Source: Tetradesmus obliquus
Taxonomy: Eukaryota > Chlorophyta > Chlorophyceae > Sphaeropleales > Scenedesmaceae
Length of the DNA stretch: 64,000 nucleotides
Direction: 5' to 3'
Assembly (NCBI GenBank): GCA_030272155.1
Contig: CP126201.1
Coordinates: 2,516,501 to 2,580,500 of the forward strand
The notes under the pieces were generated by a model. It did no database searches and had not been told where the DNA came from. It saw only the letters and a program-made list of their open reading frames with translations. How positions within the stretch are numbered: the stretch's first letter is position 1; each line of letters opens with the position of its first letter. Made by a program: the position numbers and the translations under genes. Shown here piece after piece: positions 326 to 64,000 of this stretch.

Positions 326-735
326 ACCTCTCAGCCAGCTGCCGCCCCACTCTGACGCGATGTATACACACCAAAGCTGCCATACAACTGTGATAACGCC
401 AGTCCCTTCAAACATGTCATAAACAACATTGCATTCATCCACCCGTGCCCCCCTCTCCGCCAGCTGCCTCCCCACTCTAACCTCGTGTCTAACCACAAAT
501 TGTGCCAGACAAGCAGGGTATCAACAGTCCCTTCAAACATGTCCTCAACAACATTGCCCGGATTCAATCGTGCGCACCTCTCCGCCAGCTGCCTCCCCCC
601 TCTGACGCTGCAGCATGTCTAAACACAAAAGGTGCCATGGATGTTTAGTTCAACATCAGCCCCTCCAAACATGTTTCCGTCGCCTCATTCCACCCCTGCG
701 CACCTCTCGGCCAGCTGCCTCCCCACTCTGACGCC
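326..735 (-). repeat. donor-side exon array, TRAPPC6-like exon 1 (4 copies)
   Basis: The segment encoding VRVGRQLAER plus its donor occurs at about 698-735 (real exon), 572-609, 446-483 and 326-359, a period of 122-127 nt. The units include intron sequence: a block like CAGTCCCTTCAAACATGT recurs near 400, 520 and 655. The 446 copy has lost its GT donor; the 572 and 326 copies keep it. Confidence 0.85.
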
Positions 736-981
736 CACTGCCTGCAGCGCTGCCCCAGCAGCAGGGCCGTAGTGCTGCTCAGAGAAGAACTGCACCGCCT
801 CAGTAAACAGCAGGTCCATGCAGACCTCTGCACACTTGCGCGGCCTTGCAGGATTGCTGCTGCTGCTGCTGCCGGGCGGGCCTTGCAAGAGCTGCTGCTG
901 CTGCTGCTGCTGTGGTTGCTGTTGCTGGGCTGGCAGCTGTGGGTATGGAGCCTGCAGCTGTAGCCGAGGGCTTGCGGCCAT
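326..981 (-). CDS. TRAPPC6: TRAPP complex subunit 6-like (Bet3 family), first exon, partial gene
   Basis: The ATG is at 981 and the exon runs to 704 (278 nt), ending GAG-AG before the donor GTGCGC. After a Q/S-rich leader comes a helical segment and the motif GVRVGRQLAER, which resembles the Bet3-family G-F-R-V-G-x-x-L-x-E-R segment of TRAPPC6. That family is a core subunit of the TRAPP tethering complex acting in ER-Golgi and Golgi traffic. The rest of the gene lies beyond the left edge. The 3' end of this exon is repeated three more times downstream (to 326). The leader is longer than in animal TRAPPC6. Only about 50 residues are diagnostic, so another Bet3-family paralogue is possible. Confidence 0.55.
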
Positions 982-1884: not shown

Positions 1885-2029
1885 ATGGCAAGAAACAGCA
1901 GCGCTCCTGTCAGCTTTCCGGGCCTCATCCAGCTGCATTTGAAACATAACAGCATCTGCAGCAGCAATGGCACCACAGTCATCAAGCACCTGGGCCAAGG
2001 GGTGGCCCTGTCTGCGCATCTCCACCTAC

Positions 2030-2064
<35 letters not shown>

Positions 2065-3950
2065 CTGCATTCACCACCCGCAGCAGCACCAGGGCTGCTG
2101 CTTGACCTCAGCAGCAGCATCCCTGCAGCTGCAGAGGCATCGGTGCTTCTGGGCGAGGTCTGCGGCAGTGCTTTCCTGGCCTGTGCCCGCATCAAGCTGT
2201 GTTGGATGAGTCCCTACCATTCAAGCAGCATTGCAGGGCTGCCAGGTCACATCCAGTTCATGCTGGTGCAGCTGGACGGCACTGCTGCTGCTGCTGCTGC
2301 TGGTGGTGGTGGTGGTGGTGGTGTCAGTGCTGAGGGCAGCAGCAGGCAGCAGAGAATGCAGCCGCTGTATGCAACAATCCTGCCGCTGCTGCCGGATGGC
2401 TGCAAGGCTACACTGCAGCCCGCCAAGTGAGCAGCAGGGACGCGCAGTTATATACGCCTGATGCACTGCTGTAATACACGCATTGGCACACGCATTGCTA
2501 CACGCATTGGTACACGCATTGGTACACGCATTGGTACACGCATTGGTACACGCATTGATGCAAGCAAGTGCAGCATTGGCCCTGCCGCTGCTGCCGGATG
2601 GCTGCAAGGCAACGCTGCAACCCGCCAAGTGAGCAGCAGCAATGATGCGCATTGATAGTATAACAATGCATTTCACTAAACCGCAGCTGACACTGCTGCA
2701 TGTACTCCAATGCTGGTGTCAAAAAGAAGTCGCCTGTGCATTCCTGCTAGCACAAGCCACAAACAAGCAGTGCACTGGCAGCATAAGAGCAAGCAGCTTT
2801 TCCTTGTTGCATCTGCAATGCGGGCTGTCTGCTGCAATAGGTTGCAGATCTGCCTAGATCGTTGCCTTGTGTTTTGTCTTGAACATCTGTGTCTGTCTCC
2901 TGCTCCTTGTCTGCCCATGCTGCAGGCAGCAGCCACCCTCAAAGAACGCCCTCGCGCTGCATTTGGACAGCGGCAACCCGGACCTGCGCCTGACGCTTGT
3001 GCCTGCTGCTGCTGCTGCTGCGTGCCTGTCCATCTGCTCCCTGCAGGCAGCAGCCGGCCTCAGACAATGCCCTCGCACTTCATTTCGACAGCGGCAACCC
3101 CGACCTGCGCCGCAGCAGCTGGCCTTGTCACTGCATGCTGCTGCCGTCTTTTGCATTTGCGCACCTGCCCTGCAGGCAGCAGCCAGGCTCAGGGGCAACG
3201 CCCTCGCAATGCACTTCGACAGGGGCAACCCTGACTTGCTCCTGCTGTCTGCCCATGCTACTGCTGCTCTGCTGCTGCTGCGTGTCTCACCACCTGCTCT
3301 CTGCAGGCAGCAGCCGGCCTCGGGCAATGCCCTCGCACTTCATTTCGACAGCGGCAACCCAGACTTACGCCGCAACAGCTGGCAGCAGGCTGTATATATT
3401 GCAGCAGGCAGCGACCCTTTTGCACTTGTGGACGCATCTGTAGCAGCAGCAGCGGCAATTGCAGGTGAGCGCTGGGCGGCAGCAGCTGGCAGCGTGCCGT
3501 GTACGTTGCGTCAGGCAGTGACCCCTTTGCACTCGTGGATGCCACAGTGGCAGCAGCAGCGGCAATCGCAGGTAAGCGCTGGGCGGCAGCAGCTGGCACC
3601 ATGCTGTGTTTATTGCAGCAGGCAGCGACCCTTTTGCACTGGTGGACGCCTCAGTGGCAGCAGCAGCGGCAATCGCAGGTGAGCCATTGCAGGTGAGCGC
3701 TGCATCCCAGCGCTGACCATTCAGTCTTGTTGGGTAGTAGCTATGCCACCAAGAATGGGGTGTCTCTGTGTTTTGCTGTGGTGGATGCGTCAGTGGCAGC
3801 AGCAGCGGCGATACCAGGTGAGAGCTGGGGCCCAGAACTCAAAATTCACAGTTTCCAGAGGCGTTGTGACATGTGGTGCCGCTTTGCACTACACGTGGCT
3901 GCCGGGGTGCAGTTGCATGCCTCAAGATAAAGCTGCTGCTGCTGCTGATG

Positions 3951-4021
<71 letters not shown>

Positions 4022-5397
4022 GCAGGTGGTGCACGACCATGCTGGGAGAAGCAAGTGCCGGGTATCTGCAGCACCCTGGTGCGCAGCCATGCATTGCTGT
4101 GTGGCACAGCAGTCAGCACTGATAAAAGCAGTGAAGCGCTGCACAGTCAGCTGGCAGTCCCGGCTGCACTAAAGCTCATATTTATCAGATTAGTCAATGC
4201 ACTTGTTGCCTCGTCTTCAGCAGTTGTCTGCAGGTGCCTTTTGCAGCGAACACATGTACACAAGGCCCGCGGCAGGCAAGACATTATTGTTCCTTCTGTG
4301 TTCTTAGTGCAGGGCTGGTGCACCTGGGATGCTTTGTTCCACGATGTGTCAGGCGTAAACCTTCAGCAGGGCCTGGAGGGGTTCACACAAAAGTTGCTGT
4401 GCAAAACCACTAAATTGATCTCAGTTATCGTTTGCTGCAGGGCTGGTGCACATGGGATGCCTTCTACCACGATGTGTCAGGGCTAGGGCTGCAGCAGGGC
4501 CTGGAGGGCTGATATAGAGGCAACATGAATCTGATTCTGCCAATCTGCATTGCAAAACCTCTTTTGTGTGGCAGGGCTGGTGCACTCGGGATGCATTCTA
4601 CCACGATGTGTCAGGCTTGAACCTGCAGCAGGGCTTAGAGGGGTTCATGTGACATGTGCTGTGCAAAACCACTAAATGCATTTCGTTTACGGTTTGCTGC
4701 AGGGCTGGTGCACCTGGGACGCTTTCTACCACGATGTGTCAGGCTTGAACCTGCAGCAGGGCCTGGAGGGGTTCATGTGGAATGTGCTCTGTGCAGAACC
4801 ACTAAATCAATCTCATTTGTTTATGGTTTGCTGCAGGGCTGGTGCACCTGGGACGCTTTCTACCACGATGTGTCAGGGCTGGGCCTGCAGCAGGGCCTGG
4901 ATGGGTTCAGGGCGGCAGACCCTGCCCGGGTGCCCCGCTGGCTCATCATAGACGACGGCTGGCAGGTGAGGCACATGTAACATGTTATTAACATTTTGGT
5001 TTTGTAAACAGCGCATGGTAGCAGGTGTGTGTTACAGCTGCGATGGCTGATCATAGATGACAGCTGGCAGGGGAGGCGCATCACAGTGTGATGTGTTGTT
5101 GGTATGTTGTTATTATGTGCTATGTAGGTCCCTTGTGTGTTACATGGCAGCAAGTATGTTACAAAGCTGCTGTGGCTCGTGATGCCAGAGCCAGAGCCAC
5201 CTTACTAGGCTGCATGCCACATGACATGCGTGAAAAGCTTGTGGCTTTCCCCCCGGTCAAGTTCGTTGTGAGCCTTATGCTGCTGCCACCTGTGTTGCTT
5301 TTATGCATCCTGTGATGCAGCGCACTGGACTGGACAATGCAGCGCGGCAACAGCAGCAGCAGCAGCAGGTGCTGCACAGCAAGCCGCCGCCACCACA

Positions 5398-5428
<31 letters not shown>

Positions 5429-6009: not shown

Positions 6010-6065
<56 letters not shown>

Positions 6066-9000
6066 AGGCCGCTGCTGCTGTCGGGGCTGCGCAGGCCGCT
6101 GCTGTGCGGTGTGCTGGCCCGCTGCCTGAAGGCCTTCAACCTTGCCACCAGCGAGCACTCCAAGCGGCTGCTGTCGCCAGAGTTCAATGCAAAGTTCAGG
6201 TGCAAACTTCACACTCTTACATGATAACTGCAGCATGGCACGGCATGGACAAAGCTCCCGCACCGCAAATATGCCATGCATCCATTGCATGTCTGGGATT
6301 TTCACCTTCAAGTATGCTCATTTTCTGAAATCATGTATGCATAACTTACCCTGTGCGCTGCACCTCCTCCTGCTGCAGCAACTTAACTGCTGGGCCAACA
6401 GCAGACACAAGCAGCACTGCTAGCGCAGCAGATGTGGCAGGCGTGATAGCAGCAGTTAAGCAGCGCTACAACCTGAAGCACGTGTATGCATGGCATGCAA
6501 TCCTGGGCTACTGGTCTGGAGTCAGTCCACTAGCTACACCAGCAGCAGCAGCTGCTGCCAGTGCAGCAATAAGTGCTGCAGCTGCAGCAGGTGCTGCTGC
6601 TGAAAGCAGTGCCGAGGCAGATGCTGAGGCTGCTGCGAAAGAGCTGGCAGCGGCAGCAGCAGGTATAGCCGCAGGTGACAAAGCTGCTGCTAGCAGTAAC
6701 AGCGGCAGCAGCAGCGGCATGGCCAGCAGCATTGTGCTGCCTCGTGTCAGTGACGCAATGACAGATCTGGAGCCGCCCTGCAACTGGAGCCAGCTGGTGA
6801 GTGGGAAAGACGGTCGAGTTGCTTCCATAACATGTAGATATCCTCTCTTATGTAACAGGTTATGCTTTGTCAGTGACGGAATGACAGATCCGGAGCTGTC
6901 CTGCAACTGGAGCCAGCTGGTGAGCGTGAAAGCTGTCGAGTTGCTTTCATACATGTAGGTATCCTCTCGCTTGTAACAGGTTTTGCTTTGTCAGTGACGC
7001 CATGACAGATCTGGAGCCACCTTGCAACTGGAGCCAACTGGTGAGCATGATAATTTAATGAGTTGCTTTGATAACATGCAAGTATCATCTTTCTTGTAAC
7101 ATGTTATGCTTTGTCAGCGATGCAATGACAGTTCTCCTTGCAACTGGAGCCAGCTGGTGAGCTTGAAAGGTTACTAGGAAGGGCAGCACAGTGAAGCTTG
7201 ACACATTATTTGCAGCCCTAGTAGCACACACTGCAAGAGTTGTAGCCTGCTGCTGCTGGTGGTGCTGGTGCTGCTGCTGCTGCTGCTGCTGCTGCCCCTG
7301 CTGCTAACTCCACTGCTGCCAACACCATTGCCGCCTGCATTGCCGCATTGCAGGTCCTTGCAGGCGTTGGCCTGCCTGCTGACCCTGCCGCGTTCTACCA
7401 GCAGCTGCACAGCTACCTTGCCTCACTCGGCATTGATGGCGTGAAGGTGGACGTGCAGGTGTGCAACAGCTTGTGTAAAAGACCTACTTGTAATGTACTA
7501 TGCTATACAACATAACGTACAGCATCTTTGATTGGTTGCTTGTGACCTGTGGCATGGTTTCTTGCATCGCTATACATGTGCTTGACCTGGTAGCCAGGCA
7601 GGGTTCTGTTGTGAGACTTGAGATTGTAATGCACTGCTCCACTGCTGTGCGGCTCTGCTGCTGCGCTGCAGGACCAGTTGGAGCTTGTCTGCTCAGCAGC
7701 AGGCCAGCCCGGGGCCCAAGCCCTGGCAGCTGCCTAGCACTGGAGGCCTCCGGCTGCACTGCGGCATTGCTGCCCTCAGTCATTGACTGTGCTGCCGCAC
7801 GACTGCTCTGCTGCGCTTGCTCACAGGCAGTGCTGCTGCAGCCCTGCCTTGCTGCTCTCGTTCACAGACTAGCTGTACTGCTGCTCTGGTGTGCTGCAGA
7901 ACCAGTTGGAGCTTGTCGGCTCAGCAGCAGGCCAGCCCGGGGGCCAAGCCCTGGCAGCCCCCTGGCACGCCATGCTTGGTTTGTTGACCTGGCAATGCAT
8001 GCACATGATGGATACGTTTCTGTGCTACTGCATTGCTGTGTTACTCTGCTGCAGAACCAGCTGGAGCTGGTTGGTTCGGCAGCAGGCCAGCCTGGCGGCC
8101 AAGCCTTGGCAGCTGCCTGGCACGCAGCTCTGGAGGCGTCTGCTGGCAGGCACTTCCCAGGCAACCAGCTCATCAACTGCATGTGCCACAACACCAACGT
8201 GAGTGATGGGCGGTTTTGCAGCTTGCTGTAACAGAACATATACCACACGGCTGCACCAGAACCTGTACCTGTGCTGCATGCACGCCATCAACCTTGCGTG
8301 CGTGACTGAGCACATCTGGTGCTTCTGCTGACACGAAGCTTCTTGCTTTCCTTGCTACCGCACTATCTCCAACATACAGAACCTGTACCGCATGGCCGCC
8401 ACCAATCTGGCGCGCGTCTCAGACGACTTCTACCCGCGCCTGCCAGCCAGCCACGCGCCGCATGTGGCCGTGTGTGCCTTCAACAGCCTGTTCATGGGCG
8501 TGATCGTCACACCAGATTGGGACATGTTCCACTCACGCCACCCGCGGTGAGATGTTCGTAGTGCTTGATGTTGTGTAGAAGAGGTGTTGAGTTGTGTGTG
8601 CCTTCAACAGCCTGTTCATGGGCGTGGTTGTAACCCCGGATTGGGACATGTTCCACTCACGCCACCCAAGGTGAGAGGCTGCACTGCGGTGTGTTTTGTT
8701 TGTCGGGTGGCGACGCCTGTGTGCGCCCTCAACAGCCTGTTCATGGGCGTGGTTGTCACACCAGACTAAGACATGTTCCACTCGCAACATCCGCGGTGCA
8801 GCATGTACGTAGCAAACAGCCTGCTTTCAAAATGCTGGGTGTATTGCACGCCATAACATCAGTTCTGCGCAACATGCACCAATGCATGAAGGACTTGATT
8901 GGCGTACAGCCCTTCAGCTGGCCAAGCTGGCTGTTTTTCATTGCTGGCGGCTATCCTCTCGCACATTGTCTGGCTGCACCATCTGTCCTGCAGGGCGCTG

Positions 9001-9851
9001 CTGCACGCCACCGCGCGCATGATCAGCGGGGGTCCTGTATATGTCAGTGACAAGCCAGAGGCGCATGACCCTGTGCTGCTGGCCCGGCTGGCGCTGCCTG
9101 GCGGGCGGCTGCTGCACAACAAAAACCATCATCCACAACCCATGCCATGCCTTCAACGAAGGCGGACTCATTGGTGTACCGGCCTGCTAACCTTGCTGCT
9201 ACTGGCTGCTGCACGCTATGTAAACCACACGTGTGCCTTTTTGTGCAGGGCGCTGCTGCACGCCACGGCGCGCATGATCAGCGGAGGGCCCGTGTATGTC
9301 AGTGACAAGCCAGGGGCACATGACTCAGCACTGCTGGCGCGGCTGGCGCTGCCCGGCGGAGTGCTGCTGCAGCCGCTGCTGCCTGGGCGGCCCACACGGG
9401 GCTGCCTCTTCATCGACCCCTGCAGGTGCGGCACAATTCTAATCATAAGGTTTATTGCATCGTGTTTTACATTATCGTTGAGTGGTGAGCCTGGTATAGT
9501 CTTGTGTGCGGCAGGGCGCAGCTCGCATGTCTCCTATCACAGCATGTTGTGAACAGCGTTTGTAATGCATGCTGTGCTGCTGGCGCGGCTGGCGCTGCCT
9601 GGCGGGCTGCTGCTGCAGCCGCTGCTGCCTGGGCGGCCCACACGCGACTGCCTCTTTGTGGACCCTTGCAGGTGCGGTGTCCTTTTCACTGAATACCTTT
9701 GAAACCCTCTTCTTACAGTTGGCAATGCATAGCAGGCGTCTTCTGATTGCTTTACTTTTCCGTTGAGAAGGATTGCCAGGCTGTAATCGACTGCATGGCG
9801 ATGTTGAACGCCTCCCTTTGCTGAGGTGGGCATGCATCTCACCTCTGCTTT

Positions 9852-9882
<31 letters not shown>

Positions 9883-20890: not shown

Positions 20891-25078
<4,188 letters not shown>

Positions 25079-45723: not shown

Positions 45724-47036
45724 TTAGATCAGCGGCAGCGCTGCCGTGCCCAGGCGCTCCGCCAGCGAGACTTGGCTGCGCACCAGGTGTGCAAAGTAGC
45801 TGAGCAGCAGGTCGTCCTGCACGCCCTCGTTGAACATGCGCTCAAAGGCAGCAGGCTCCAGGTGCGGCACCACCGCCAGCGTGTCTGCCAGATAGCGCCC
45901 AACAGATGCGTCGCCCTCGCGGCGGCCAGCCTACGTATGCAAAAGAGTATACTTCAGTTGATGAGGAGTTCCATGTTAACAGTGTGTAATTGTGTCAGGA
46001 AGGTGAGTGTGAACTGTGATTGTGTTTAAACAAGCCAGTCGAGCAGTGCAATTGAAATGGCTGTTTCAAGGACAAGCAGCAGCGTGCGTGTGAAGGAGTG
46101 AACCCAGGACCATCCATCCGCGCTTGCAGCCCCCAGGATCTGCCTGCAAGCAACGCACTGCATTCACACAGATTCAACCTACACATCTGTGCCAGCACTG
46201 CCAGCGACTCGCTGCTTGTGACATCAGTGCAGTCCACATGCAGCCGCAAGGACACAAAGCTAGCACACAACGCTCACCACCACGTCCTCCACGTAGGCCT
46301 GCGCCTTGCCCAGCAGCGCGGTGAGCCGCGTGGTGCTGGTGGCACACAAGCAGTCACAACGCATGCAACACCTATGTGCACATGGAACCACACAGTGCAG
46401 CAACCAGCACACCGACCACCACGACCTCTGCGCAGCCTTGACTGTTGTCCAGCAGCACACAACGCACACGGATGCAGCACCGACACTAAAGTGAGCCACA
46501 CAAGCCAACTACAGATGTGGTAAAAGATTGTAACTCACCACCACGTCCTCCACGTAAGCCTGTGCTTTGCCCAGCAGCGCGGTGAGCCGCATGATGCTGG
46601 TGGCCAGCGTCTCCTGCTCGGCAGTGGGCTTGCCCTTCTCGGGATCGCCAGACACCAGCAGGCTCACTGCGGCAGAAGCAGCAGCAGGACAGTTCGGCAC
46701 AGCATATGCAAACAGCGGCAGGCACATACTGCTAGGTGGCTGGCTCCCAGCACGCCACGCTCGACAGCCGCACTGCACAATGTTGCGACGCTGCCTCTGC
46801 TATCCACGAGCTGACTGGACTTGCCGATAGAAGATGGGCGTGTTGCAACTGCTGTTTGCTCTCAGCTCACCTCCCACGCGCTCCACATCGCCGTATGCCA
46901 CGTCACATGGCACCTCCACAAACTCCATGCCCAGCGGCTTGTCGCCCAGCGCCAGCCCGCGGCTCACAAACGTGCTGCAGGGCAGCTTGTCCTGCTGCAG
47001 GCTGGTGTCCAGGCGCAGGTGCACCTGCAGCAGCAG

Positions 47037-54800: not shown

Positions 54801-57800
54801 CATGCTTGCGCCAACAGGTGCGGCTTACTCAGGGTTCCAGCACGTTGGTTCCAGGGACACGTTTTACAGCCGGTGTGGTTCTTGTGCTTATGACGCTGCA
54901 GTGGTGCTGCACTGTATTCATTTTTCACATGATGTAGGTGCCTTGTGTTCAGGTGCCGGCAACACCAACGTGGCCATGTTGTGCATCCTGCAAATGCAGT
55001 TCAGGCATCCGGTATTTTAATTAGCATCGACGTCTTCTTGCTTATCTGCCGTTGTATCATACGCTCAATCTATACAGGTGCTGGCAAGTTCAACGTGGCC
55101 ATGCTGTGCATCCTGCATGAGCTGGGGGGCTGCACAGACACCTGGCCTGTAGCAACAGCGCTTTTTGAAACTATTGCTTCACTTCTGCTGCAATCACCCA
55201 CACGCAGGCGCCGGCAAGACCAACGTGGCCATGCTGTGCATCCTGCATGAGCTGGGGCTGGAGAGGCACCTGGCTTGTAGCAACTCTATCAAAACAATAC
55301 TGTTGTGCTGCTGTTGCACTGATCCCTTTTGTTGCAGGTGCGGGCAAGACCAACGTGGCTATGCTGTGCATCCTGCACGAACTGGGGCTGCACCGCCGTG
55401 CTGACGGCACCTTTGACATGAGCGCCTTCAAGGTGGTGTATGTGGCGCCGATGAAGGCGCTGGTGGCTGAGATGGTGGGCAACTTCACGAAGCGCCTGGG
55501 CGAGGCGTACGGCCTGCAAGTGCGCGAGCTGACGGGTGAGGGCAGCAGCTTGTGGGATTCTGCTGTGCTGTGTTGTCTCCTTGCAATGTGTGAATGCGCA
55601 GCCTGCAAATCTATTTGGCTTGGACAATGGGCTGGTGCATATTTGGTTCTGTTAGGCGCGTTTGGTGGTGTATGTGGCGCCAATGAAGGCGCTGGTGGCT
55701 GAGATGGTCGGCCACTTCACAAACAGATTAGGGGAGGCTTATCGGCTGCAAGTGCTCGAGCTGACGGGTGAGCGCAGCAGCTTGTTTGTGGCTTTGTGTT
55801 TGTCTGTGTTGTTTGCTACATTGTGTGAATGCGCAGCCGGCAAATTTGTTTGCCTGGTGCATATTTGGTTTTGTCAGGGGCTGTTGGCTGTGTATGAGGC
55901 GCCGATGAAGGCGCTGGTGGCTGAGGTGGTTGGCAACTACACGAAGAGATTAGGGGAGGCTTATGGGCTGCAAGTGCGCGAGCTGACGGGTGGGTGGAAA
56001 GGCCTGCGACTGCTTGTTTTGCTGCAATTGTGTGCTGTGTTACAGTGTGACGTATTGCATCTGCTGATACAATTTCGCATGCTGCATCGCACTAAATGGC
56101 TTCTTTCACCTACCTGCCTGCAGGTGACGTGAACCTGACCAAGCAGGAGATTGAGGAGACGCAGATCATCGTGACCACGCCCGAGAAGTGGGACATCATC
56201 ACGCGCAAGAGCGACGACCGCACCTACACGCAGCTGGTGCGTGGCGGCATGCAGCGTTGGTATCAGCTTGTGATGATGTGCCGCCTGCATGCTGTTGCGA
56301 CCGCACCCTCACGCAGCTGGTGCGGCGGCTGCATGCAAGGTACACATCCTGCTGTTGCTCGCCTGCATGATCTCAGAGCATGATGTGGCAAGCATGGCTG
56401 ACATGCATTCGCTCACACAACCGCTACTGCTGCTGCAGGTGCGGCTGATGATCATTGATGAGATCCACCTGCTGCACGACAGCCGCGGGCCAGTGCTGGA
56501 GAGCATCGTGGCGCGCACCATACGGTGAGAGCCGGGGGTGCTGCTGTTTTACAGTTTTCAGTTTTGTCTCGTGTTGTTGTGCTGGCAGCAGACAACTGCG
56601 GATGTAGCTGGGCAGCATTGTGGCGTGCACCACAAGCACTTAGCTCATGCAGGATGTGGCCACTCAGCTCGGCTGCGCGCTGCTGCTTCTTCCTTTTGTT
56701 GCTGCTGTTTGACGTTGCAGGCAGATCGAGTCAACGCAGGAGATGACGCGCATCGTGGGGCTGTCCGCCACGCTGCCCAACTACGATGACGTGGGCACCT
56801 TCCTGCGAGTGAAGCCTGACAAGGGACTGTTCTACTTCGACAACAGCTACAGGTGCATTATATGGGTTTAGGGCCTGGGGTTTGATAGAATGGCATGCTG
56901 TTTGATTTGTTGTTGTCTGCAGCGTGTCGCTTCCATGGTCACTGTGTGCTGCAACTGTTGCCGTGAGACCTGTGACTCCATCATCTCTTGCAGGTTGTGC
57001 CCTACAGCGCAGCAGTTCGTTGTTACCATTCCTCACCTTCCTCACCCGTTGCTGCACCTGTTGCTTTCCTTCTCCGCAGGCCGTGCCCGCTGGCGCAGCA
57101 GTACATCGGCATCACCATCAAGAAGCCGCTGCAGCGCTTCCAGCTCATGAACGAGATCTGCTACAACAAGGTGCTGGACTGCGCCGGCAAGCACCAGGTG
57201 AGCTGAATCAGCCGTTTCCATCAGTTTACGGAGTTCTCTAGTTCTATCTACTTGCTGATGAACGAGATCTGCCACGACAAGGTGCTGGACTGCGCAGGCA
57301 AGCACCAGGTGAGGTGGCAGCAGGTAGCTGGTTATATCTGGTCCTGTCCACAACTTCCAACCATGACAACAGCCTTGGCTGTGGTTGTATTTGACTAATG
57401 TGCTGGATTTGGCTCTGCACTCATGCGCATTTGCTCAATAATCTTACTGCAACTTAAAACATACCATTGGTGTGGCCGCGTGTTCTTTGCTGCTAACCAG
57501 GTGCTCATCTTTGTGCACAGCCGCAAGGAGACTGCCAAGACGGCGCTGTTCCTGAAGCAGACAGCGCTGGACAACGACCACCTGGCCAAGTTCATGCGCG
57601 ACGACAGCGCGAGCCGAGAGATTCTGCAGGTGATTATGTTACATCTGTTATCTGTTTGATGACTGATCAGGCGCTGGCAGTGTTACTTGGCACCGTCATG
57701 GTATGGAGCATCACTTGCCTGATAATGCAGGGCGACCGCCAGCAGGGAGGTCCTACAGGTGCACGTTTACATATGCTATGCAGATGTGTGTCAGCAGCTG

Positions 57801-60800
57801 TCAAGGCATCACCAGACATGCCGCGCATGCACAGCAGCTGTGACGGTGGTGCTGACCCTACCTCTGACGACGAGTGATGCTGAGAGACAGCTGGCATGTG
57901 TATGTTATGCCATATCGACTGTTGCTGGTTGTCTGCTTGTCAATCTGCAGACTGAGGCTGAGGCTGCCAAGACAAGCGAGCTGCGCGACCTGCTGCCGTG
58001 TATACCGTCATGTATGTATGCTAAATGTATGCGAACTGCGTTTGGCTGCATGCTGCGCTGTTGCAGACTGAGGCTGAGGCCGCCAAGACACGAGCTGAGC
58101 GGCCATGCTGTTTATCTTGCACAGTCATATGACTGAAACCTTGATGCCGCATTGCTGCTTTGTCTGCAGACTAAGGCTGAAGCCGCCAAGACGAGCGAGC
58201 TGCGCGACCTGCTGCCGTGTATGCTATCATGTATGTATGCGAAGTGTATGCTTACTGCGTTTGGCTGCATGCCGCGCTGTTGCAGACTGAGGCTGAGGCT
58301 GCCAAGACGAGCGAGCTGCACGACCTGCTGCCCTCCTGCTTATGTGAATGTTGTTGTGACAAGAGTCGGTTTTTTCCTGCCTTCCCCTGCGCAGACTGAG
58401 GCCGAGGCTGCCAAGACCAGCGAGCTGCGCGACCTGCTGCCGTTTGGCTTTGCCATCCATCATGCTGGCATGAGCCGCGTGGACAGGACGCTGGTGGAGG
58501 ACCTGTTTGCTGACGGCCACATCCAGGTGGGTTCTGGATGCGTTGATGTGTGAAAGAATTATGTTATGTAACAAGTATGATTGTCATAGGAGCTGCCTTT
58601 CAGTGTTCTCAGTGTGAGTGCATGCTGGTGGACCTGTTGTGCGGTCAGCCACATACACGGGGTGGCTTGCACTGCTCGTTGTCTTGCTGCCGGCACTGCC
58701 CGCTCCTTCGCCTGCAAGCTCGTCGGTTTACTGTGACTGCGTCACCAGCATACAGCGCAGCTGCTACTCATGCTGGTTTGGACTGACGTTTAGTGTGAAC
58801 TTGAAGCTGACACTAAACTTCTGTTGTGTTATGCAGGTGTTGGTGTCCACTGCCACGCTGGCGTGGGGCGTCAACCTGCCCGCGCACACGGTCATCATCA
58901 AGGGCACACAGGTGTACAGCCCGGTCAAGGGCGCCTGGGACGAGCTCAGCCCGCAGGACATGATGCAGATGATGGGCCGCGCAGGTGAGGGGCATGGGCT
59001 AGGAGTTTGCATAAGTTTGCATGTGTTTTCTGTTTGAGTCTTGATCTCTCATGGTCGTGACATCACGCAAATGGTTGCTTTTGCCAGTGAGAGCAGTAAC
59101 CTGCTGTGCTGAAAGCTATGTTGTGTGCTGCACGTGGCATGTTAGTCTTGCTGTGGTGAGCCAGCACGCCTGACAAGCACAGGGCAATTACCATCCAATG
59201 CCTGCATGCGCACACTGATCTCCGCGCAAAAGGCGTTGCCCTGTGTGCAGCAGTCGTCATCTGCAGCACGTGTCTCTCCTGCTGATGCTGCGGCTGCAGG
59301 CCAGCCCCAGTTTGACACTGTCGGCGAGGGCATCATCATCACCCTGTGACCGCCAACTGCCGATACACAACACATATCTCACTGTTGCTGCCACTACTGC
59401 CGCAGGTCGCCCACAGTTCGACACTTTCGGAGAGGGCATCATCATCACTGGGCACACGGAGCTGCAGTTCTACCTGTCGCTGTTCAACGTGCAGCTGCCC
59501 ATTGAGAGCCAGTACATCGGCACCATCCCCGACAACCTCAACGCAGAGATCGTGCTCGGCACAGTGCAGGTGGGGGAGGGGACTGCGGCAGCTGCCGCAA
59601 TCAAAATCTGTGTTCTCCTCTTGCAAGTGCAGTGCCTTGCATGTGCATCATGCGCTTGGAGTCACTTGATGTGAGTAGAGGAAATGAATTGGTTGTCAAC
59701 AAATGCATGCTGTCTGTAAGCATCTGGCTTTGCTCAGTACCCTTCTTCTGCAAGTACGTGCCGCTGCTAACACTTCCTCTTTGCCGTTCTTGGCCGTCTT
59801 CTTTCTACAACAGATCCTCAAGGACGCAGCCACCTGGCTGGGCTACCCCTACCTGTACGTGCTCAGCACTCTCCTCTTGGTTTGCTGGCCTCTGATTTCG
59901 CTTTCTTTCCACTCCTCTGCTTTCTGAACCCCAACAGAACCTCAAGGACGCGGCCACCTGGCTGGGCTCCCCCTACCTGTACGTGCTCAGCACTCTCTTC
60001 TCACTATGCCGTGCCTCCGATTTTGTCTGCCTTATCGCTTTGTCAACCCCAACAGAACCTCAAGGACGCAGCCACCTGGCTGGGCTACTCCTACCTGTAC
60101 GTGCTCAGCACTCTCTTCTTACTATGCTGTGGCCTCCGTATCTGTCTGCTTTATCGCTTCGTCAACCCCAACAGAACCTCAAGGATGCGGCCACCTGGCT
60201 GGGATACTCTTACCTGTACGTGCGCATGCTGCGCTCCCCTGCGCTGTACGGCGTGCCGCTGGGGGCCCTGGAGGACGACCCGCTGCTGCTGCAGCACCGG
60301 CTGGACCTGGCGCACAGCGCTGCGCTGCTGCTGGACAAGAACAACCTCATCCGGTGCGCTTGGCTGGTGTTACTTAGTTGATATCATGCACGGACTGATG
60401 TTTGAATACTCATGATGTCTGTGGTTGCACATGCACCCTGCTGCACTGTACTGTGGAGACGGTTGTGTGTGATGCACCCACATGCAGGCTGCGCTGTATT
60501 TGAATCCAACTCCTGACTGCGACGCATGTCATGTATGCTGCTGTTTCACAGGTACGACCGGCGCACGGGCGGCTTCCAGGTGACAGATCTGGGCCGCATT
60601 GCCAGCCACTACTACATCACCTACAGATTCATATGCATACCATTTCTGAAACTTGTTGTTTATGATGTCATTGTAACAGGTACGACCGGCGCACGGGCGG
60701 CTTCCAGGTTACGGACCTGGGCCGCATTGCCAGCCACTACTACATCACCTACACCACGCTGGCGGCCTTCAACAGCCACCTGAAGCCCACCATGGGAGAC

Positions 60801-63800
60801 ATCGAGCTGCTGCGCCTGTTCAGCCTGGCTGACGAGTTCAAGTGTGTTTTTGTGTGGTCTCAAGTGAATCTTTGCAGCAGCGTGTGTCCTGTGCAGAAGA
60901 AAGGTATCTGAGATGTGTTTCGTAGTAATTGTTGAGTGAAGTAGCACAGGGGTGTGTGTGTTCAGTGCTTGCGCGTGCATCTGCATGTGGCTGGCGGCCT
61001 TCAACAGCCACCTGAAGCCCACCATGGGCGACATCGGGCTGCTGCGCCTGTTCAGCCTGGCTGACGAGTTCAAGTGAGTGGGGGTGGTGTTAATTCCTGC
61101 AGGAGGAAATCTGGTAGGCAGCAGGAGGAAATGCTGGAGCTGGCCAAGCCCATTCAGCGCGCGCATTGTCATTTTGTCTCGTCATATGGTGCGTTACATG
61201 TCACATCTCGTATCGCCGCAGGTTCATGATTGTGCGCAAAGAGGAGAAGCTGGAGCTGGCCAAGCTCATCTACAGCTGTCATGTTGTCATCGTACCAATT
61301 TTTTATGCTGAAAACCAAACAAACCAAATAATCTGTCACATCTGCCGCAGGTTCATGATTGTGCGTGAGGAGGAGAAGCTGGAGCTGGCCAAGCTTATCG
61401 ACAGGGTGCCTGTGCCTGTCAAGGAGAGTCTGGATGAGCCCAGCGCCAAGATCAACGTGCTCATGCAGGTGCGGTGCAGCAAAGATAGCATGTGCGGCTT
61501 TCGGTGTTTAAAAGTATCTTTAAAGAATTTTGCAGGCCTGCCAGCTCATGTTGGTGTCTGGCTTGCAGGCGCGCTGCGTGTCAAGCTGATGCGCCAGGGC
61601 ATGTAAGAAGCTTCACACTGTGCGTTGCAGCGGCTGCCGCTGCCTCCACCCCTGCTACGGCAAACCTTGCCCATGCCTTATTGTGCGTTGGCGTGCTACG
61701 GTGTGACTGGTTTTTTTCAGGCGTATATCAGCATGAATCTGGAGGGGCTGGCGCTGAGCAGCGACACGGTATACTTGACCACAGAATCAGAATACTGTTG
61801 GAGCTCTCGGTCAACTCACCGTACACATTCATGCGCTCTGGCTTGTTCTTATGCAGGCGTACATCAGCAACCTGAAGCTGGAGGGCTTGGCATTGAGCAG
61901 CGACTTGTGACTGCGCTGTTGCTCACCACACCCGCGTTCATGTGCTGTTTGTTTGAACATCAATTCGCAGGCATACATCAGCAACCTGAAGCTGGAACTC
62001 CTGGCGTTGAGCAGCGACACGGTGTACTTTGTCAGTGATAAAACCCTCACGTTACTAATGTACACACGTTTGCGCGCTGTCTTGTTCTGTGTGCAGGCGT
62101 ACATCAGCAACCTCAAGCTGGAGGGGCTGGCGCTGAGCAGCGACATGGTGTACGTCACGCAGAGCGCAGGGCGGCTCATGCGCTGCCTGTTTGAGATCTG
62201 CCTCAAGCGTGGCTGGGCGGGGCTCACTGACAAGGCGCTCAACCTGTGCAAGGAGGTGGGCACACTAGCTGTATGACATGTTATATAACATGTGCCAGGT
62301 GTCGTTTGTTTTGAAGTAGCATGTCAGTTTGTATATGCGATGCTGCGCGGGGCTCATGGACAGGCGCTCAACCTGTGCAAGGAGGTGTGCGGCGGCTGTG
62401 TGATGTGTTACATAACATATGTTGACTCCGATTGCAGGTTGTGCAGTGGTGCATGTGGTGGGGTACAGCTGCCCTTGTGCACTGCATGGGCCGGAGCCAG
62501 GTCAACATGCTTCCGTTGTTCTCATCATGACTGTGCTTGCTTGCGCAACCGCAAACCCTGCAGGTGAACCACCGTATGTGGTCCAGCCAGGACCCTCTGC
62601 GCCAGTTCAAGGGCAGGCCGGGGGAGCTGCTGAGCCACCTGTCCTTGTTATTTCTAAAATGTATAAAACTTTTACCGATGAACATTCATCAACCAAAGAT
62701 CTGAATGTGATTGATGCAGGTGAACCACCGCATGTGGTCCAGCCAGAACCCGCTGCGCCAGTTCAAGGGCCTGCCGGGGGAGCTGCTGAGCCGGCTTGAG
62801 AAGAAGGACCTGCCCTGGGAGCGCTACTACGACCTGAAGCCCAGCGAGCTGGGAGACCTGATCCGCATGCCCAAGTACGGCAAAGCCCTGGTGAGTGGAT
62901 GAAGACTAATCTTTGCTATACTCGTTTCTATACTTTTCCCTTTCCCTTTCTTTTATCTGAATGTCTGCTTGCCTCATCACAGCGCTTGCACTTCTAGGAA
63001 TCCGCACCGTGCTACTGCGCCCATCCACCACAGGCCGCCTGGCTCCTGCTTACCCTTGCGATCCTGCACCTGCTACCCGCCGCCCTGCTGTCCTCACCAT
63101 GCCCGCAGCACAAGTTTGTGCACCAGTTCCCGCGCCTGGAGCTGGCGGCGCATGTGCAGCCGCTCACGCGCAGCCTGCTGCGCATCGACCTCACCCCGTT
63201 CTCTCACCCCTCTCCCCCACTTCACTTCCCTCGCCTACTGACGCCGCTACCCTGCGGCGATATTCCTGTCCCCGCAGCACAAGTTTGTGTACCAGTTCCT
63301 GCGCCTGGAGCTGGCAGCACAGCATATGCGGACCCAAACCCCAATCCTGCTTCTATGTCTCATTGTTCCTCGTGCGTATGCAATTGCTTGTACTGACTCA
63401 CACCATCCTGCTATTTGCCTTCCGCTGCCCTGCCCGCAGCACAAGTTTGTGCACCAGTTCCCCCGCCTGGAGCTGGCGGCGCATGTGCAGCCGCTCACGC
63501 GCAGCCTGCTGCGCATCGACCTCACCATCGCGCCCGACTTTGCATGGGAGGACAAGGTGCACGGCGCGGTGGAGCCTTTCTGGCTGCTGGTTGAGGATGC
63601 AGACGGCGAGGTGGGTGGCAGCTGAATGTGTTACATCCGTTTTTTTGCTGAGTCTGCCTTCCTTTGTGTTTGCTGGCTGTGTTTTCGGTGTAAAAATGGA
63701 ATGTTCTGGGTAAGTTTTGCTCCTGAACAAGCAGTCCCGGACTTTGCGTGGGCTGACAAGGTGGTGTACGCGGCTGTGGAGCCCTTCTGGCTGCTGGTTG

Positions 63801-64000
63801 AGGATGCAGACGGCGAGGTGGGTGGTCCCTCTCTTTATTGTTTTCGTTTTTGCTGAGTATGTGCTTCTTTGTGTTTGTCGGCTGTGTTTCTTGTGAAGTT
63901 TTGGGTTTGTTTTGTAAGGTTTATGGTCTGAAGCAGTACCGGACTTTGCGTGGGACGACAAGGTGCACGGGGCCGTGGAGCCTTTCTGGCTGCTGGTCGA
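48874..64000 (+). CDS. BRR2: pre-mRNA splicing helicase Brr2 (U5 snRNP 200 kDa), partial
   Basis: Exons 48874-48939, 49719-49879, 50119-50186, 50578-50757, 51016-51185, 51773-51920, 52475-52605, 53124-53264, 53557-53648, 53863-54111, 54349-54557, 55338-55535, 56124-56236, 56439-56524, 56721-56852, 57080-57197, 57501-57629, 58395-58526, 58837-58984, 59406-59569, 60175-60353, 60680-60841, 61351-61468, 62097-62255, 62720-62890, 63440-63610; 1265 codons, all phases consistent. It is colinear with Brr2: the N-terminal [12 protein letters not shown] region, acidic linker, [14 protein letters not shown], Walker A APTGAGKTN (near 540), DEIH box (649-652), [39 protein letters not shown], then the winged-helix and first Sec63 region to [11 protein letters not shown]. 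The second helicase cassette lies beyond the right edge. Brr2 unwinds U4/U6 during spliceosome activation. It is the richest gene here in tandem exon-edge copies. Confidence 0.97.
49603..49770 (+). repeat. acceptor-side duplication, Brr2 exon 2
   Basis: The start of exon 2 ([12 protein letters not shown], 49719) is repeated 116 nt upstream at 49603, the first codons changed (NFEPCGH frame) but the nucleotide match continuing to about 49648. Confidence 0.88.
50891..51441 (+). repeat. two-sided array, Brr2 exon 5 (3 copies)
   Basis: The upstream copy (50891 to about 50968) holds DPESRCECE, then a stop. The complete exon is 51016-51185. The downstream copy (about 51343-51441) repeats [20 protein letters not shown] to the donor nearly perfectly, period 256 nt. 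Confidence 0.92.
51635..51850 (+). repeat. acceptor-side duplication, Brr2 acidic exon 6
   Basis: An acidic segment after AG at 51635 ([20 protein letters not shown]) parallels the complete exon at 51773 ([20 protein letters not shown]), period 138 nt. A CTG run (51731-51753) lies between them. Both are open, so the choice of 51773 rests on phase. Confidence 0.8.
52148..52545 (+). repeat. acceptor-side exon array, Brr2 exon 7 (4 copies)
   Basis: The [17 protein letters not shown] segment begins after CAG at 52148, 52257, 52358 and 52475 (periods 109, 101, 117). Only the last runs to a donor (52605). Confidence 0.94.
52880..53195 (+). repeat. acceptor-side exon array, Brr2 exon 8 (3 copies)
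   Basis: The [20 protein letters not shown] segment begins at 52880, 53028 (strongly diverged) and 53124 (complete). The 52880 copy matches for about 65 nt, then breaks in the DHF codons. The older copy thus sits between two that are nearly the same. Confidence 0.92.
53528..53549 (+). repeat. CTG microsatellite near an acceptor
   Basis: About seven CTG units precede the acceptor CCACCAG of Brr2 exon 9 (53557). Confidence 0.85.
54489..54817 (+). repeat. donor-side exon array, Brr2 exon 11 (3 copies)
   Basis: The segment [20 protein letters not shown] to the donor ends at 54557 (real), 54689 and 54817 (periods 132, 128). The third copy has lost six nucleotides (MLAPTG). The repeated exon end includes the APTG half of Walker A. 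Confidence 0.94.
54953..55395 (+). repeat. acceptor-side exon array, Brr2 exon 12 (4 copies of the Walker A half)
   Basis: The [16 protein letters not shown] segment begins at 54953 (AGNTN), 55078 (AGKFN), 55208 (AGKTN) and 55338 (AGKTN, complete), periods 125, 130 and 130. The two distant copies have lost an essential Lys or Thr. Confidence 0.96.
55430..55989 (+). repeat. donor-side exon array, Brr2 exon 12 (3 copies)
   Basis: The segment [20 protein letters not shown] to the donor ends at 55535 (real), 55767 and 55989 (periods 232, 222). Copies keep an open frame over about 105 nt with a few substitutions. Confidence 0.95.
56210..56319 (+). repeat. short donor-side copy, Brr2 exon 13
   Basis: CGACCGCACC..ACGCAGCTG before GTGCG (real end 56236) recurs at 56297-56319, period 83 nt. 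Confidence 0.75.
56505..56634 (+). repeat. decayed donor-side copy, Brr2 exon 14
   Basis: AGCATCGTGGCGCGCACCATACG at the exon end (56524) has a diverged repeat at about 56611-56634 (AGCATTGTGGCGTGCACCAC), without a proper donor. Confidence 0.6.
56994..57308 (+). repeat. two-sided copies, Brr2 exon 16
   Basis: Upstream, 56994-57022 (RLCPTAQQF) is a decayed copy of the exon start RPCPLAQQY at 57080. Downstream, 57256-57308 ([18 protein letters not shown] plus GTGAGG) copies the exon end at 57197, period 111 nt. Confidence 0.88.
57951..58455 (+). repeat. acceptor-side exon array, Brr2 exon 18 (5 copies)
   Basis: [16 protein letters not shown] begins after CTGCAG/TTGCAG at 57951, 58067, 58170, 58286 and 58395 (periods 116, 103, 116, 109). 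The 58067 copy has a deletion. Only the last continues into FGFAIHHAG. Confidence 0.96.
58485..58657 (+). repeat. decayed donor-side copy, Brr2 exon 18
   Basis: About 58620-58657 resembles the exon end at 58490-58526 (GCTGGTGGA..GACCTGTT.. GGCCACAT), about 127 nt downstream, without a recognisable donor. Confidence 0.6.
59300..59455 (+). repeat. acceptor-side duplication, Brr2 exon 20
   Basis: [14 protein letters not shown] at 59300 repeats the exon start [14 protein letters not shown] at 59406, period 106 nt. The copy ends in a stop shortly after the match. Confidence 0.94.
59814..60225 (+). repeat. acceptor-side exon array, Brr2 exon 21 (4 copies)
   Basis: [15 protein letters not shown] begins at 59814, 59938, 60056 and 60175 (periods 124, 118, 119), each followed in the copies by GCTCAGCACTCTC where the real exon has CGCATGCTGCGC. 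The copies therefore share a common derived junction. Confidence 0.96.
60552..60755 (+). repeat. acceptor-side duplication, Brr2 exon 22
   Basis: [20 protein letters not shown] at 60552 repeats the exon start at 60680, period 128 nt, nearly identical over about 75 nt. Confidence 0.95.
60757..61073 (+). repeat. donor-side duplication, Brr2 exon 22
   Basis: [22 protein letters not shown] plus donor (real end 60841) recurs at 60990-61073, period 232 nt. The real donor is GTGTGT and the copy has the stronger GTGAGT. Confidence 0.95.
61119..61400 (+). repeat. acceptor-side exon array, Brr2 exon 23 (3 copies)
   Basis: [16 protein letters not shown] begins at 61222 and, complete, at 61351 (period 129). 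A weaker partial match ([10 protein letters not shown]) lies at about 61119-61162. Confidence 0.9.
61721..62150 (+). repeat. acceptor-side exon array, Brr2 exon 24 (4 copies)
   Basis: [19 protein letters not shown] begins after CAG at 61721, 61857, 61971 and 62097 (periods 136, 114, 126). The second ends in TGA after SSDL. Only the last is complete. Confidence 0.96.
62215..62384 (+). repeat. donor-side duplication, Brr2 exon 24
   Basis: GGGCTCA..GCGCTCAACCTGTGCAAGGAG plus GT (real end 62255) recurs at about 62346-62384, period 129 nt. Confidence 0.88.
62564..62810 (+). repeat. acceptor-side duplication, Brr2 exon 25
   Basis: [17 protein letters not shown] at 62564 repeats the exon start at 62720 (SSQNPLRQ), period 156 nt, similar for about 85 nt. 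Confidence 0.95.
63109..63530 (+). repeat. acceptor-side exon array, Brr2 exon 26 (3 copies)
   Basis: [20 protein letters not shown] begins at 63109, 63278 and 63440 (periods 169, 162). The 63109 and 63440 copies differ at about one position over 85 nt, while the middle copy is diverged after RLELAA. Confidence 0.95.
63531..64000 (+). repeat. donor-side exon array, Brr2 exon 26 (3 copies, cut by window edge)
   Basis: [20 protein letters not shown] to the donor ends at 63610 (real) and 63817 (period 207). A third copy starts near 63939 and is cut at 64000. The downstream copies follow an AG (AAGCAG), so their status as decoys is less certain than elsewhere. Confidence 0.88.

Follow-up and report, generated by a model that had tools for sequence, protein, structure and literature searches.

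Exon-edge arrays in the window and across the genome

Short-range arrays of repeated exon edges are confirmed as a real and genome-wide phenomenon in Tetradesmus obliquus, in which between one sixth and one third of the sampled introns carry extra copies of an exon edge. The window, the whole stretch of 64,000 nt that was analysed (contig C11, CP126201.1, assembly GCA_030272155.1, positions 2,516,501-2,580,500 of the forward strand), gave 108 forward matches in a self-BLAST with CAG runs masked (E<=1e-3), 48 of them at 50-200 bp, 53 at 200-500 bp and seven at 500-1000 bp; no match beyond the last class and no inverted match was detected in this comparison. Dinucleotide shuffling, done once for each of six 10-kb pieces of the window, left 0 near matches compared with 98 in the real sequence.

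Merging of these matches resulted in 49 arrays (Table 1), close to the roughly 45, with 2-6 copies, of the original prediction, and 46 of them contact an exon edge predicted by self-trained gene models, which fuse neighbouring genes and give approximate gene boundaries. The remaining three were called exon-only; the array at 2920-3383 is counted as a decoy array as well, since that edge is present a single time in the protein annotated for another T. obliquus strain, 29602-29862 is a coding repeat and 51631-51849 is unsure. Array periods are 77-281 bp, with 29 of the 49 at 105-139 bp, inside the predicted spacing of 95-170 nt, but the full range exceeds that spacing and eight arrays have periods of 232-261 bp. 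Ten gene regions were counted, and the Cys-rich gene (about 26.9-31.4 kb) is the only one without an exon-edge array, in agreement with the predicted nine of ten.

Table 1. Short-range arrays in the 64,000-nt window (positions counted from its first nucleotide).
Position	Strand	Feature	Remarks
318-734	-	array	period 125; donor side of exon 704-981 by gene model; intron leaves window start
2379-2639	+	GH36 donor-side pair	d=202
2920-3383	+	GH36 acceptor-side array	~4 copies; last fits other strain's protein
3369-3829	+	GH36 whole-small-exon array	period 107; once in other strain's protein
4308-4909	+	GH36 acceptor-side array	5 copies of 14-residue edge; last (4837-4965) runs into exon
4936-5081	+	GH36 donor-side pair	d=105
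6745-7169	+	GH36 donor-side array	period 123; ~4 copies
7644-8125	+	GH36 acceptor-side array	3 copies
8470-8812	+	GH36 donor-side array	period 124; 3 copies
8989-9677	+	GH36 mixed array	downstream copy 9572-9677 fits other strain's protein better than copy taken as real
10183-10366	+	acceptor-side pair	d=128
13691-13861	+	SASA-esterase gene donor-side pair	
14425-14761	+	SASA-esterase gene acceptor-side pair	d=232; flank homologous
16692-16918	+	SET-domain gene donor-side pair	d=139
17152-17938	+	SET-domain gene compound array	
17945-18315	+	SET-domain gene exon-edge pair	d=281
18078-18382	+	SET-domain gene pair	d=233
18478-18816	+	SET-domain gene exon-edge pair	d ~190
19088-19943	+	SET-domain gene donor-side array	period 103-107; 4-5 copies and one distant
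21379-21595	-	SGNH/GDSL-like gene donor-side pair	
21611-21774	-	SGNH/GDSL-like gene acceptor-side pair	
23380-23767	-	acceptor-side array	period 170
29602-29862		coding repeat	
32204-32482	-	globin-like gene acceptor-side array	period 119
33103-33476	-	globin-like gene donor-side array	
40411-40862	-	P4-ATPase gene array	period 119-129; SSPDEEAL once in annotated T. obliquus protein
46273-46604	-	MitMem_reg-domain gene exon-edge pair	d=261
49598-49755	+	Brr2 acceptor-side pair	
50881-51088	+	Brr2 acceptor-side pair	
51080-51456	+	Brr2 exon-edge pair	d=256
51631-51849	+	Brr2 N-terminal part repeat	exonic per gene finder; status unsure
52144-52527	+	Brr2 acceptor-side array	period 109; 4 copies
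52876-53200	+	Brr2 exon-edge pair	d=244; 94%
54491-54822	+	Brr2 donor-side array	period 132; 3 copies, first real
54941-55393	+	Brr2 acceptor-side array	4 copies, last real
55432-55992	+	Brr2 donor-side array	period 232; 3 copies
56215-56337	+	Brr2 donor-side pair	d=83
57143-57316	+	Brr2 donor-side pair	d=111; aligned homology stops 8 nt beyond junction
57944-58443	+	Brr2 acceptor-side array	5 copies, last real
59280-59448	+	Brr2 acceptor-side pair	d=106
59808-60226	+	Brr2 acceptor-side array	4 copies
60548-60753	+	Brr2 acceptor-side pair	T 96% identical over 74 nt; alignment includes 4 nt of intron
60758-61079	+	Brr2 donor-side pair	T 98% identical over 84 nt; alignment includes 6 nt of intron; d=232
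61199-61404	+	Brr2 acceptor-side pair	
61704-62153	+	Brr2 acceptor-side array	4 copies
62212-62421	+	Brr2 donor-side pair	flank homologous
62559-62792	+	Brr2 acceptor-side pair	spacer 62637-62719 unique in genome search
63097-63526	+	Brr2 acceptor-side array	outer T 99% identical over 86 nt; alignment includes 13 nt of intron; ambiguous in flank test
63533-64000	+	Brr2 array	period 204; reaches window end

Outside the window, 20 fixed 10-kb loci on many contigs were sampled (264 kb together with the window), of which L018, containing a kilobase-scale repeat, was left out of the edge-array, placement and intron counts, leaving 19 loci. Near repeats are present in 16 of the 20 loci (166 near matches versus 20 far and nine inverted) and edge arrays in 14 of the 19, which bears out the prediction of a property of the genome that affects unrelated genes on both strands. 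Donor- or acceptor-side copies were detected in 37 of 213 introns outside the window (63 when looser matches are counted) and in 36 of 108 inside it, and arrays take up 17,110 of 100,983 bp of intron sequence in the loci (17%) and 11,649 of 40,158 bp in the window (29%), which is richer in arrays than the other sampled loci.

Regarding placement, 107 of the 130 arrays in window and loci lie at an exon edge (74.3 expected at random), while 10 are intron-only (29.5), one is intergenic (8.4) and 12 are exon-only (17.7); the corresponding figures for the 81 arrays of the loci alone are 61 (41.3), 10 (18.2), one (7.2) and nine (14.3). When 60-nt probes were compared with their own intron, a score of at least 40 was reached by 60 of 374 exon-edge and two of 150 mid-exon probes. 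This score was also reached by 31 of 129 mid-intron probes, which is tentatively attributed to arrays extending there. The predicted tie to splice sites is thus upheld by the excess at edges and the deficit of intron-only, intergenic and mid-exon copies.

Architecture of the arrays

The arrays are more sharply structured than previously described, with units in the order T-F-T(-F-T), in which T is an exon edge of about 50 bp that ends at the splice junction, its inner end lying some 30-95 nt inside the exon, and F is a spacer with its own splice signal. The junction is reached by 118 of 129 exon copies (12.8 expected), and homology ends within 13 nt beyond it in 45 of 67 outermost copies. The repeated piece had been described as an intron end plus an exon start, but most outermost copies consist of the exon edge and little beyond the splice consensus. 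Acceptor and donor do not occur together in each copy, as they would in repeated complete exons, since T stops inside the exon; an exception is the whole small exon at 3369-3829. At the inner breakpoint of T, no motif, microhomology or CAG was detected above background.

The outermost flank was compared with F for 78 edges, five of 83 having been dropped as they lack 50-nt flanks, and was unrelated in 50, homologous in 18 and ambiguous in 10, the 4-fold divergence of T being 0.194 in the unrelated-flank class and 0.176 in the homologous-flank class. Among the eight outermost copies with at least 97% identity in T, five have an unrelated flank (one of them, L010 1052, with P=0.029 in a second flank test), two a homologous and one an ambiguous flank. 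In L020, which is outside this list, T and F are 100% identical, the outer flank is unrelated and homology starts 5 nt before the junction. Decay as the sole cause of unrelated outer flanks was rejected on the basis of the similar T divergence in both classes and the identity in L020. Inner spacers of multi-copy arrays are alike (16.3% diverged where aligned), and the core intron between the outermost copies is ordinary, with a median of 234 bp for a full intron of 439 bp (73 introns).

Three spacers and two outer flanks were each found solely at their own place or array in a search of the 104.7-Mb genome that skipped common words and scored the best candidates only, and comparison of 82 spacers with the 264-kb sample gave 29 other matches, all short except that of the L007 spacer (272 nt) with a dispersed repeat. 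An introner or mobile intron element was rejected on these grounds, as the three genome-searched spacers were detected in that search in their own array alone and, of the 82 compared with the sample, a single one includes a dispersed repeat. The longest string shared by F with local templates on the same strand averages 9.18 versus 7.46 (P=0.00026; at least 12 nt in nine of 76), an excess that probably stems from the homologous-flank class; it is modest and weaker on the other strand, and F as a patchwork of local templates was likewise rejected. No relatives were found among viral contigs.

Splice signals of the decoys were scored after dropping 13 copies without a mapped junction. Among acceptor decoys, 31 of 33 outer and 27 of 28 inner ones retain the AG, the acceptor score of outer flanks is 1.64 versus -2.53 at random AG, and the pyrimidine tract of acceptor decoys is 0.642 versus 0.533 in random intron, while GT was lost in 16 of 39 outer donor decoys.

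Putative decoy copies and their divergence

When Brr2 is assembled from single copies of its edges, the protein can be aligned along human Brr2 (1342.5 bits, query residues 154-1129; alignment inspected up to about residue 951). In two annotated T. obliquus proteins, GH36 of another strain and P4-ATPase, each edge that was checked is present a single time; both proteins are database annotations and not transcript reads. The GH36 protein of the other strain is noticeably different. The extra copies look like intronic decoys and, being absent from the compared proteins, like an unusual route to longer introns. Where real and decoy copies of Brr2 differ in an amino acid, the derived residue is almost always that of the decoy, which indicates that decoys decay: the relative P0004, which for part of Brr2 aligns to the second helicase cassette, sides with the real copy in 28 cases, with the decoy in one and with neither in 16, and the relative P0001 in 32, none and six cases, respectively. 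Of 37 indels in the exon parts of copies, 33 are not multiples of 3.

Differences between real copy and nearest decoy comprise 203 synonymous, 111 nonsynonymous and two stop changes, against about 43% synonymous expected by a hand derivation from the substitution spectrum. This bias persists in decoys with indels (ratio 2.76, versus 2.99 without) and is 3.07 for decoys with an intact splice site (97 decoys) and 2.19 for those with a broken one (19). Third-codon-position divergence is 18.9% and homogeneous (P=0.22, 80 edges), whereas divergence at codon positions 1+2 (P=5e-5) and in aligned intron (P=3e-18) is heterogeneous. The original prediction had taken a range of identities, from nearly perfect to barely visible, as a sign of a continuing process. 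The homogeneous third positions leave that process unestablished, although the nearly identical arrays L020 and L016 do show recent activity at a few arrays, and the copies described as barely visible are, taken together, hardly above chance, given the small excess of weak matches (score at least 28) at edges without a strong match, 15 versus 7.0 expected for donors and eight versus 5.0 for acceptors.

Origin of the arrays

From these patterns we infer how the duplications arose, which copies are chosen by splicing in vivo and why homology breaks off so sharply at the junction. The best reading, which we give about an even chance, is that of tandem duplications spanning a junction and concealed by splicing. 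An array would start with a short tandem duplication of about 120 bp across one splice junction, with a unit made up of T, roughly 50 bp from the exon edge, and F, roughly 70 bp from the intron; the copy attached to the exon body would be spliced and the other would end up in the intron as a decoy, leaving the duplication nearly invisible to the mRNA. Since duplications of such a length within exons would alter the protein while junction-spanning ones would be tolerated, copies would accumulate at junctions and introns would lengthen. Our best guess for the junction-sharp end of homology is ongoing recombination of the T copies with the exon under selection, by gene conversion or unequal exchange and perhaps with a diverged homologous chromosome, which would hold T alike while the outer intron flank drifts. 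Tandem duplication is consistent with the enrichment at edges and the scarcity of intron-only, intergenic and mid-exon copies, with the clear homology to F that its plain version predicts and that 18 of 78 outermost flanks show, and with single-copy edges in proteins, decoy decay, an ordinary core intron and alike inner spacers. The mean intron length of 462 bp in T. obliquus, compared with 230, 302 and 284 bp in three other Sphaeropleales, as given in the available part of the source (PMC5966456), also agrees with it. However, 50 of the 78 flanks are unrelated to F despite similar T divergence, simple duplication and decay cannot yield such flanks where T is at least 97% identical (five of eight) or in L020, and synonymous changes make up a larger share of the differences between real and decoy copies than free decay would leave, a bias that gene conversion alone does not account for.

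It is possible, though unlikely, that T alone, up to the junction, was pasted into the intron beside a pre-existing splice-like site 50-85 bp away, perhaps via RNA or a splicing intermediate, F being the original intron end. The 118 of 129 copies that reach the junction (12.8 expected), the outer flanks that are mostly unrelated to F yet resemble true splice sites, the spacers and flanks found only at their own place in 104.7 Mb, the complete identity of L020 with homology from 5 nt before the junction and the inner end without motif or microhomology all argue for such copying, whereas the 18 homologous flanks and the repetition of inner spacers along with T argue against it, and we know of no machinery that copies exon edges with junction precision. 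A mutational process in Tetradesmus that inserts such copies at about 120 bp spacing beside splice-like sites has a low probability in our judgement; if true, it would mean that genomic DNA is duplicated by a machinery coupled to splicing or RNA. Quite unlikely is recombination between homologs, in which a break in an intron would be repaired from a homolog with too divergent an intron, with synthesis from the shared exon edge, so that a second edge and the homolog's intron become inserted. Two coding lineages of the same age would suit the synonymous bias and homogeneous third positions (P=0.22), both junctions look functional, the core introns look complete and the protein of the other strain is noticeably different; the text available of PMC7955037 reports probable diploidy and separate haplotypes for a related Scenedesmus strain. 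Against this stand the heterogeneous divergence of codon positions 1+2 and introns, the expectation that, with third positions about 19% diverged, most introns should still be alignable like the inner spacers, the derived state of the Brr2 decoys and the need for such events at one sixth to one third of introns. Distinctly improbable, too, is that decoys are putative alternative splice sites retained to regulate expression: intact AG (31 of 33 outer, 27 of 28 inner), a kept pyrimidine tract and a synonymous bias that is stronger with an intact splice site (3.07 versus 2.19) would fit, but GT was lost in 16 of 39 outer donors, most indels are frame-shifting, amino acids of Brr2 decoys are derived and the bias is similar with and without indels. 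An assembly artefact is very improbable, as most copies differ by many substitutions and indels and near repeats occur in 16 of 20 loci on many contigs. Hardly credible is intron gain by the classical AGGT tandem-duplication model, which the presence of tandem duplications near introns might suggest; it is contradicted here by a repeat offset equal to intron length (within 6 nt) in one of 53 exon-to-exon matches and by in-register AG|GT in 12 of 83 T pairs, compared with AGGT in 12 of 64 control segments.

Significance and comparison with known systems

Intron growth is an open question, and boundary-crossing duplication was found in print as a single case, while in T. obliquus the above 17% (loci) and 29% (window) of intron sequence lie in short-range arrays within conserved genes. 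Because conserved proteins distinguish real from decoy copies, rate, size scale, splice-site competition and mechanism can be tested by comparison of strains. Gene predictors will call decoys as exons in T. obliquus, as the self-trained finder did here.

No repeated exon edges in Tetradesmus or Scenedesmus were described among the matches listed from open-licence literature (titles and beginnings of abstracts), and a word search of the available portions of genome papers on strains of these genera found no passage on them. The stwintrons of the Hypoxylaceae are, to our knowledge, without exon-edge copies. They resemble the arrays in that a complex intron contains multiple sets of splice elements, as far as the accessible part of the paper describes them (PMC8469720). 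Tandem exon duplication and mutually exclusive exons, in the sections available of PMC9013439, share adjacent repeats of exon sequence with splice sites but involve whole exons, whereas the T. obliquus copies are mostly one edge, cut 30-95 nt inside the exon. The Rogers model of intron gain by AGGT tandem duplication (PMC3443670, available in part) likewise has short genic tandem duplications concealed by splicing, but requires AG|GT together with an offset that matches the intron in length, and the T. obliquus arrays have neither. The boundary-crossing tandem duplication in the potato RdRp gene has, in the excerpt available (PMC4974935), a unit of intron end plus exon start, and the splicing signals of the copy derive from the parental intron; it concerns one gene, whose mRNA retains the duplicated exon part and which gains a new intron. 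As regards such a unit, the outer flank in T. obliquus gives a mixed picture, being homologous in 18, unrelated in 50 and ambiguous in 10 of 78 cases. In contrast to potato, the checked edges of Brr2, GH36 and P4-ATPase appear single in the proteins, with no extra piece flanked by introns, and the copies, present in one sixth to one third of the sampled introns, are apparently intronic decoys.

Placement of Exon-Edge Arrays

Self-comparison of the window revealed 108 forward repeats, every one no more than 1 kb apart, and no inverted repeats; a control with one shuffle for each of six window pieces gave no repeats. The window (C11:2516501-2580500, from an assembly of 104.7 Mb in 17 contigs) was compared with twenty 10-kb loci at fixed coordinates elsewhere in the genome, making 264 kb in all, with exact CAG/CTG runs of at least four units masked in the repeat searches. 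In the loci, near repeats (166, at least one in 16 of 20 loci) were found alongside 20 far and 9 inverted repeats. The 132 arrays of the sample comprise 108 at exon edges, 12 exon-only, 11 intron-only and one intergenic.

Permutation tests, from which locus L018 was dropped owing to its kilobase-scale repeats, showed that among 130 arrays exon-edge arrays are commoner than under random placement (107 vs 74.3 expected), and intron-only (10 vs 29.5) and intergenic arrays (1 vs 8.4) are rarer; for the 81 arrays of the loci alone the corresponding values are 61 vs 41.3, 10 vs 18.2 and 1 vs 7.2. Probes from exon edges matched their own intron in 60 of 374 cases, mid-exon probes in 2 of 150. Regarding the 338 introns of at least 60 nt, 45 have donor-side and 38 acceptor-side copies, and 117 have any copy when matches between two predicted exons are counted. 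Window introns are denser in donor- or acceptor-side copies (36/108 vs 37/213 in loci without L018), also with exon-to-exon matches counted (47/108 vs 63/213).

Gene models came from a small, purpose-written, self-trained HMM gene finder which merges adjacent genes and at times takes decoys (extra edge copies inside introns) for exons, and key genes were for this reason tied to proteins. Since decoys called as exons inflate the edge class and these models leave few intergenic stretches, the protein-anchored genes weigh more. The window P4-ATPase has 97% identity to a T. obliquus protein, and each checked edge is single in the annotated T. obliquus P4-ATPase (P0121) and in the GH36 protein of another strain (P0241); one 14-residue GH36 edge has five matching places in the window DNA. 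With each edge taken once, Brr2 aligns to human Brr2 along query residues 154-1129 (printed alignment up to about residue 951), and a transcript-derived partial Brr2 of a relative (P0004; 95% identity over 71% of the query) has single edges in the overlap. Raffinose synthase, SASA esterase, SET, MitMem_reg and BRR2 plug matches in window gene pieces passed the curated Pfam cut-off, globin and GDSL matches fell under it, and two of nine pieces had no Pfam match.

Locations of individual arrays and other repeats
Sequence	Position	Observation
Window	2475-2557	Seven tandem copies of a 12-bp unit (TACACGCATTGG); the same GH36 intron also carries an exon-edge pair
Window	3932-4020, 23019-23142, 23999-24059, others	Long CAG/CTG runs, plentiful in the window
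Window	8989-9677	GH36 array; downstream copy closer to the other strain's protein than the copy picked as real
Window	29602-29862	Ser/Ala/Thr-rich 42-bp coding repeat in the Cys-rich gene; no relation to exon edges
Locus L007	near 9033-9712	272-nt spacer holding a dispersed repeat (150 nt at 85% with locus L016, 82 nt at 90% with locus L021)
Locus L016	5798-6157	79-bp array, GTGAGT donor inside nearly identical copies
Locus L018	1-6039	Kilobase-scale tandem repeats of another kind, periods about 274-351 bp, many nearly identical
Locus L020	2000-3700	Youngest array, in a gene presumably resembling the splicing GTPase Snu114/EFTUD2

Array Architecture

The arrays have the layout (T F)n T, in which T, the exon edge ending at the splice junction, stands at both ends and F is a spacer with its own splice signal; in multi-copy arrays the aligned spacers resemble one another. 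Periods have a main peak at 105-139 bp and a second bump at about 220-265, with none of 132 under 77. Median offset, exon part and spacer are 124, 56 and 70 for acceptor-side edges and 130, 48 and 79 for donor-side edges. The junction is reached to within 4 nt by 118 of 129 donor or acceptor matches (12.8 expected). On the exon side, acceptor homology weakens over 45-75 nt and has vanished by 105, and donor homology extends to about 120 nt. Intron-side coverage at donors falls from 0.115 to 0.074 over the first 8 nt and is 0.056 at 20 nt; at acceptors it starts at 0.101, is down to 0.083 by 8 nt and reaches 0.054 by 30 nt, both curves being flat beyond.

Of 78 flanks lying beyond the outermost T, 50 bear no relation to F, 18 are homologous to it and 10 are ambiguous. 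Where the homology of an outermost copy ends no more than 13 nt from the junction (45 copies), F and flank are about as alike as randomly paired sequences (KS P=0.44; 7/45 below 0.05). Despite mostly lacking homology to F, outer flanks make good splice sites: those at acceptors score 1.64 (real acceptors 3.50, random AG -2.53), keep AG in 31 of 33 and have a pyrimidine share of 0.642 vs 0.533 in random intron, and outer donor decoys keep GT in 23 of 39. Measured between the outermost copies, the core intron has an ordinary length (median 234 bp vs 439 bp for the full intron; 73 introns, eight with values below zero because arrays overlap). Thus, the outermost copies seem to mark old junctions, with inner units added on the exon side.

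Divergence and Decay of Decoys

Between real copies (edges joined to the exon body) and decoys, divergence at the first, second and third codon positions is 7.2, 5.8 and 19.0%, and that of aligned intron 16.9%. Single changes in the nearest decoys are synonymous in 203 cases, nonsynonymous in 111 and stops in 2; if a copy decayed freely next to an exon under constraint, the change spectrum would predict about 43% synonymous. This bias is alike whether decoys carry indels (2.76) or not (2.99) and weaker in decoys with broken splice sites (2.19 vs 3.07), and 33 of 37 indels in exon parts shift the frame. Polarised by P0004, the Brr2 residue that has changed is in the decoy at 28 sites and in the real copy at one, with neither matching at 16; polarised by P0001, the counts are 32, 0 and 6. 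The frame shifts, the indifference of the bias to indels and the derived Brr2 residues argue for decoys that probably lack a present function. In GH36, the other strain sides with the decoy at 4 of 24 differences, three of them in the array at 8989-9677, where the wrong copy may have been taken as real or the copy in use may differ between strains.

Third-position divergence is homogeneous across edges (P=0.22) and does not differ between nearest and outermost copies (0.195 vs 0.186), a pattern that by itself would suit a single age, continuous homogenisation or a pair of coding lineages. Positions 1 and 2 (P=5e-5) and aligned intron (P=3e-18) are not homogeneous and speak against a single age.

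Origin of the Arrays

Tandem duplication across the splice junction, concealed by splicing, would account for array position, the intact protein, core-intron length and the homologous-flank class. Plain tandem duplication leaves unexplained those recent arrays whose outer flanks are unrelated: where outermost copies have T of at least 97% identity (n=8), five have unrelated, two homologous and one ambiguous flanks. It likewise leaves unexplained the L020 array, T-F-T-F-T at 100% identity, where homology begins 5 nt ahead of the junction. For three spacers and two outer flanks the search found no place but their own, so within its reach these five were not copied from elsewhere in the assembly. 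Tentatively, recombination keeping T alike is ranked above pasting of T alone, and joining with a diverged homolog is placed last.

Comparison With Known Systems

The AGGT model of intron gain by tandem duplication was rejected, as both of its defining features, as given in a review (PMC3443670), fail to hold for the T. obliquus arrays. The mean intron length of 462 bp in T. obliquus vs 230, 302 and 284 bp in three other Sphaeropleales, as stated in the Raphidocelis genome paper (PMC5966456), agrees with intron lengthening and is no proof of it. The nearest published case found is the potato RdRp gene, with a duplication across an intron-exon boundary (PMC4974935).
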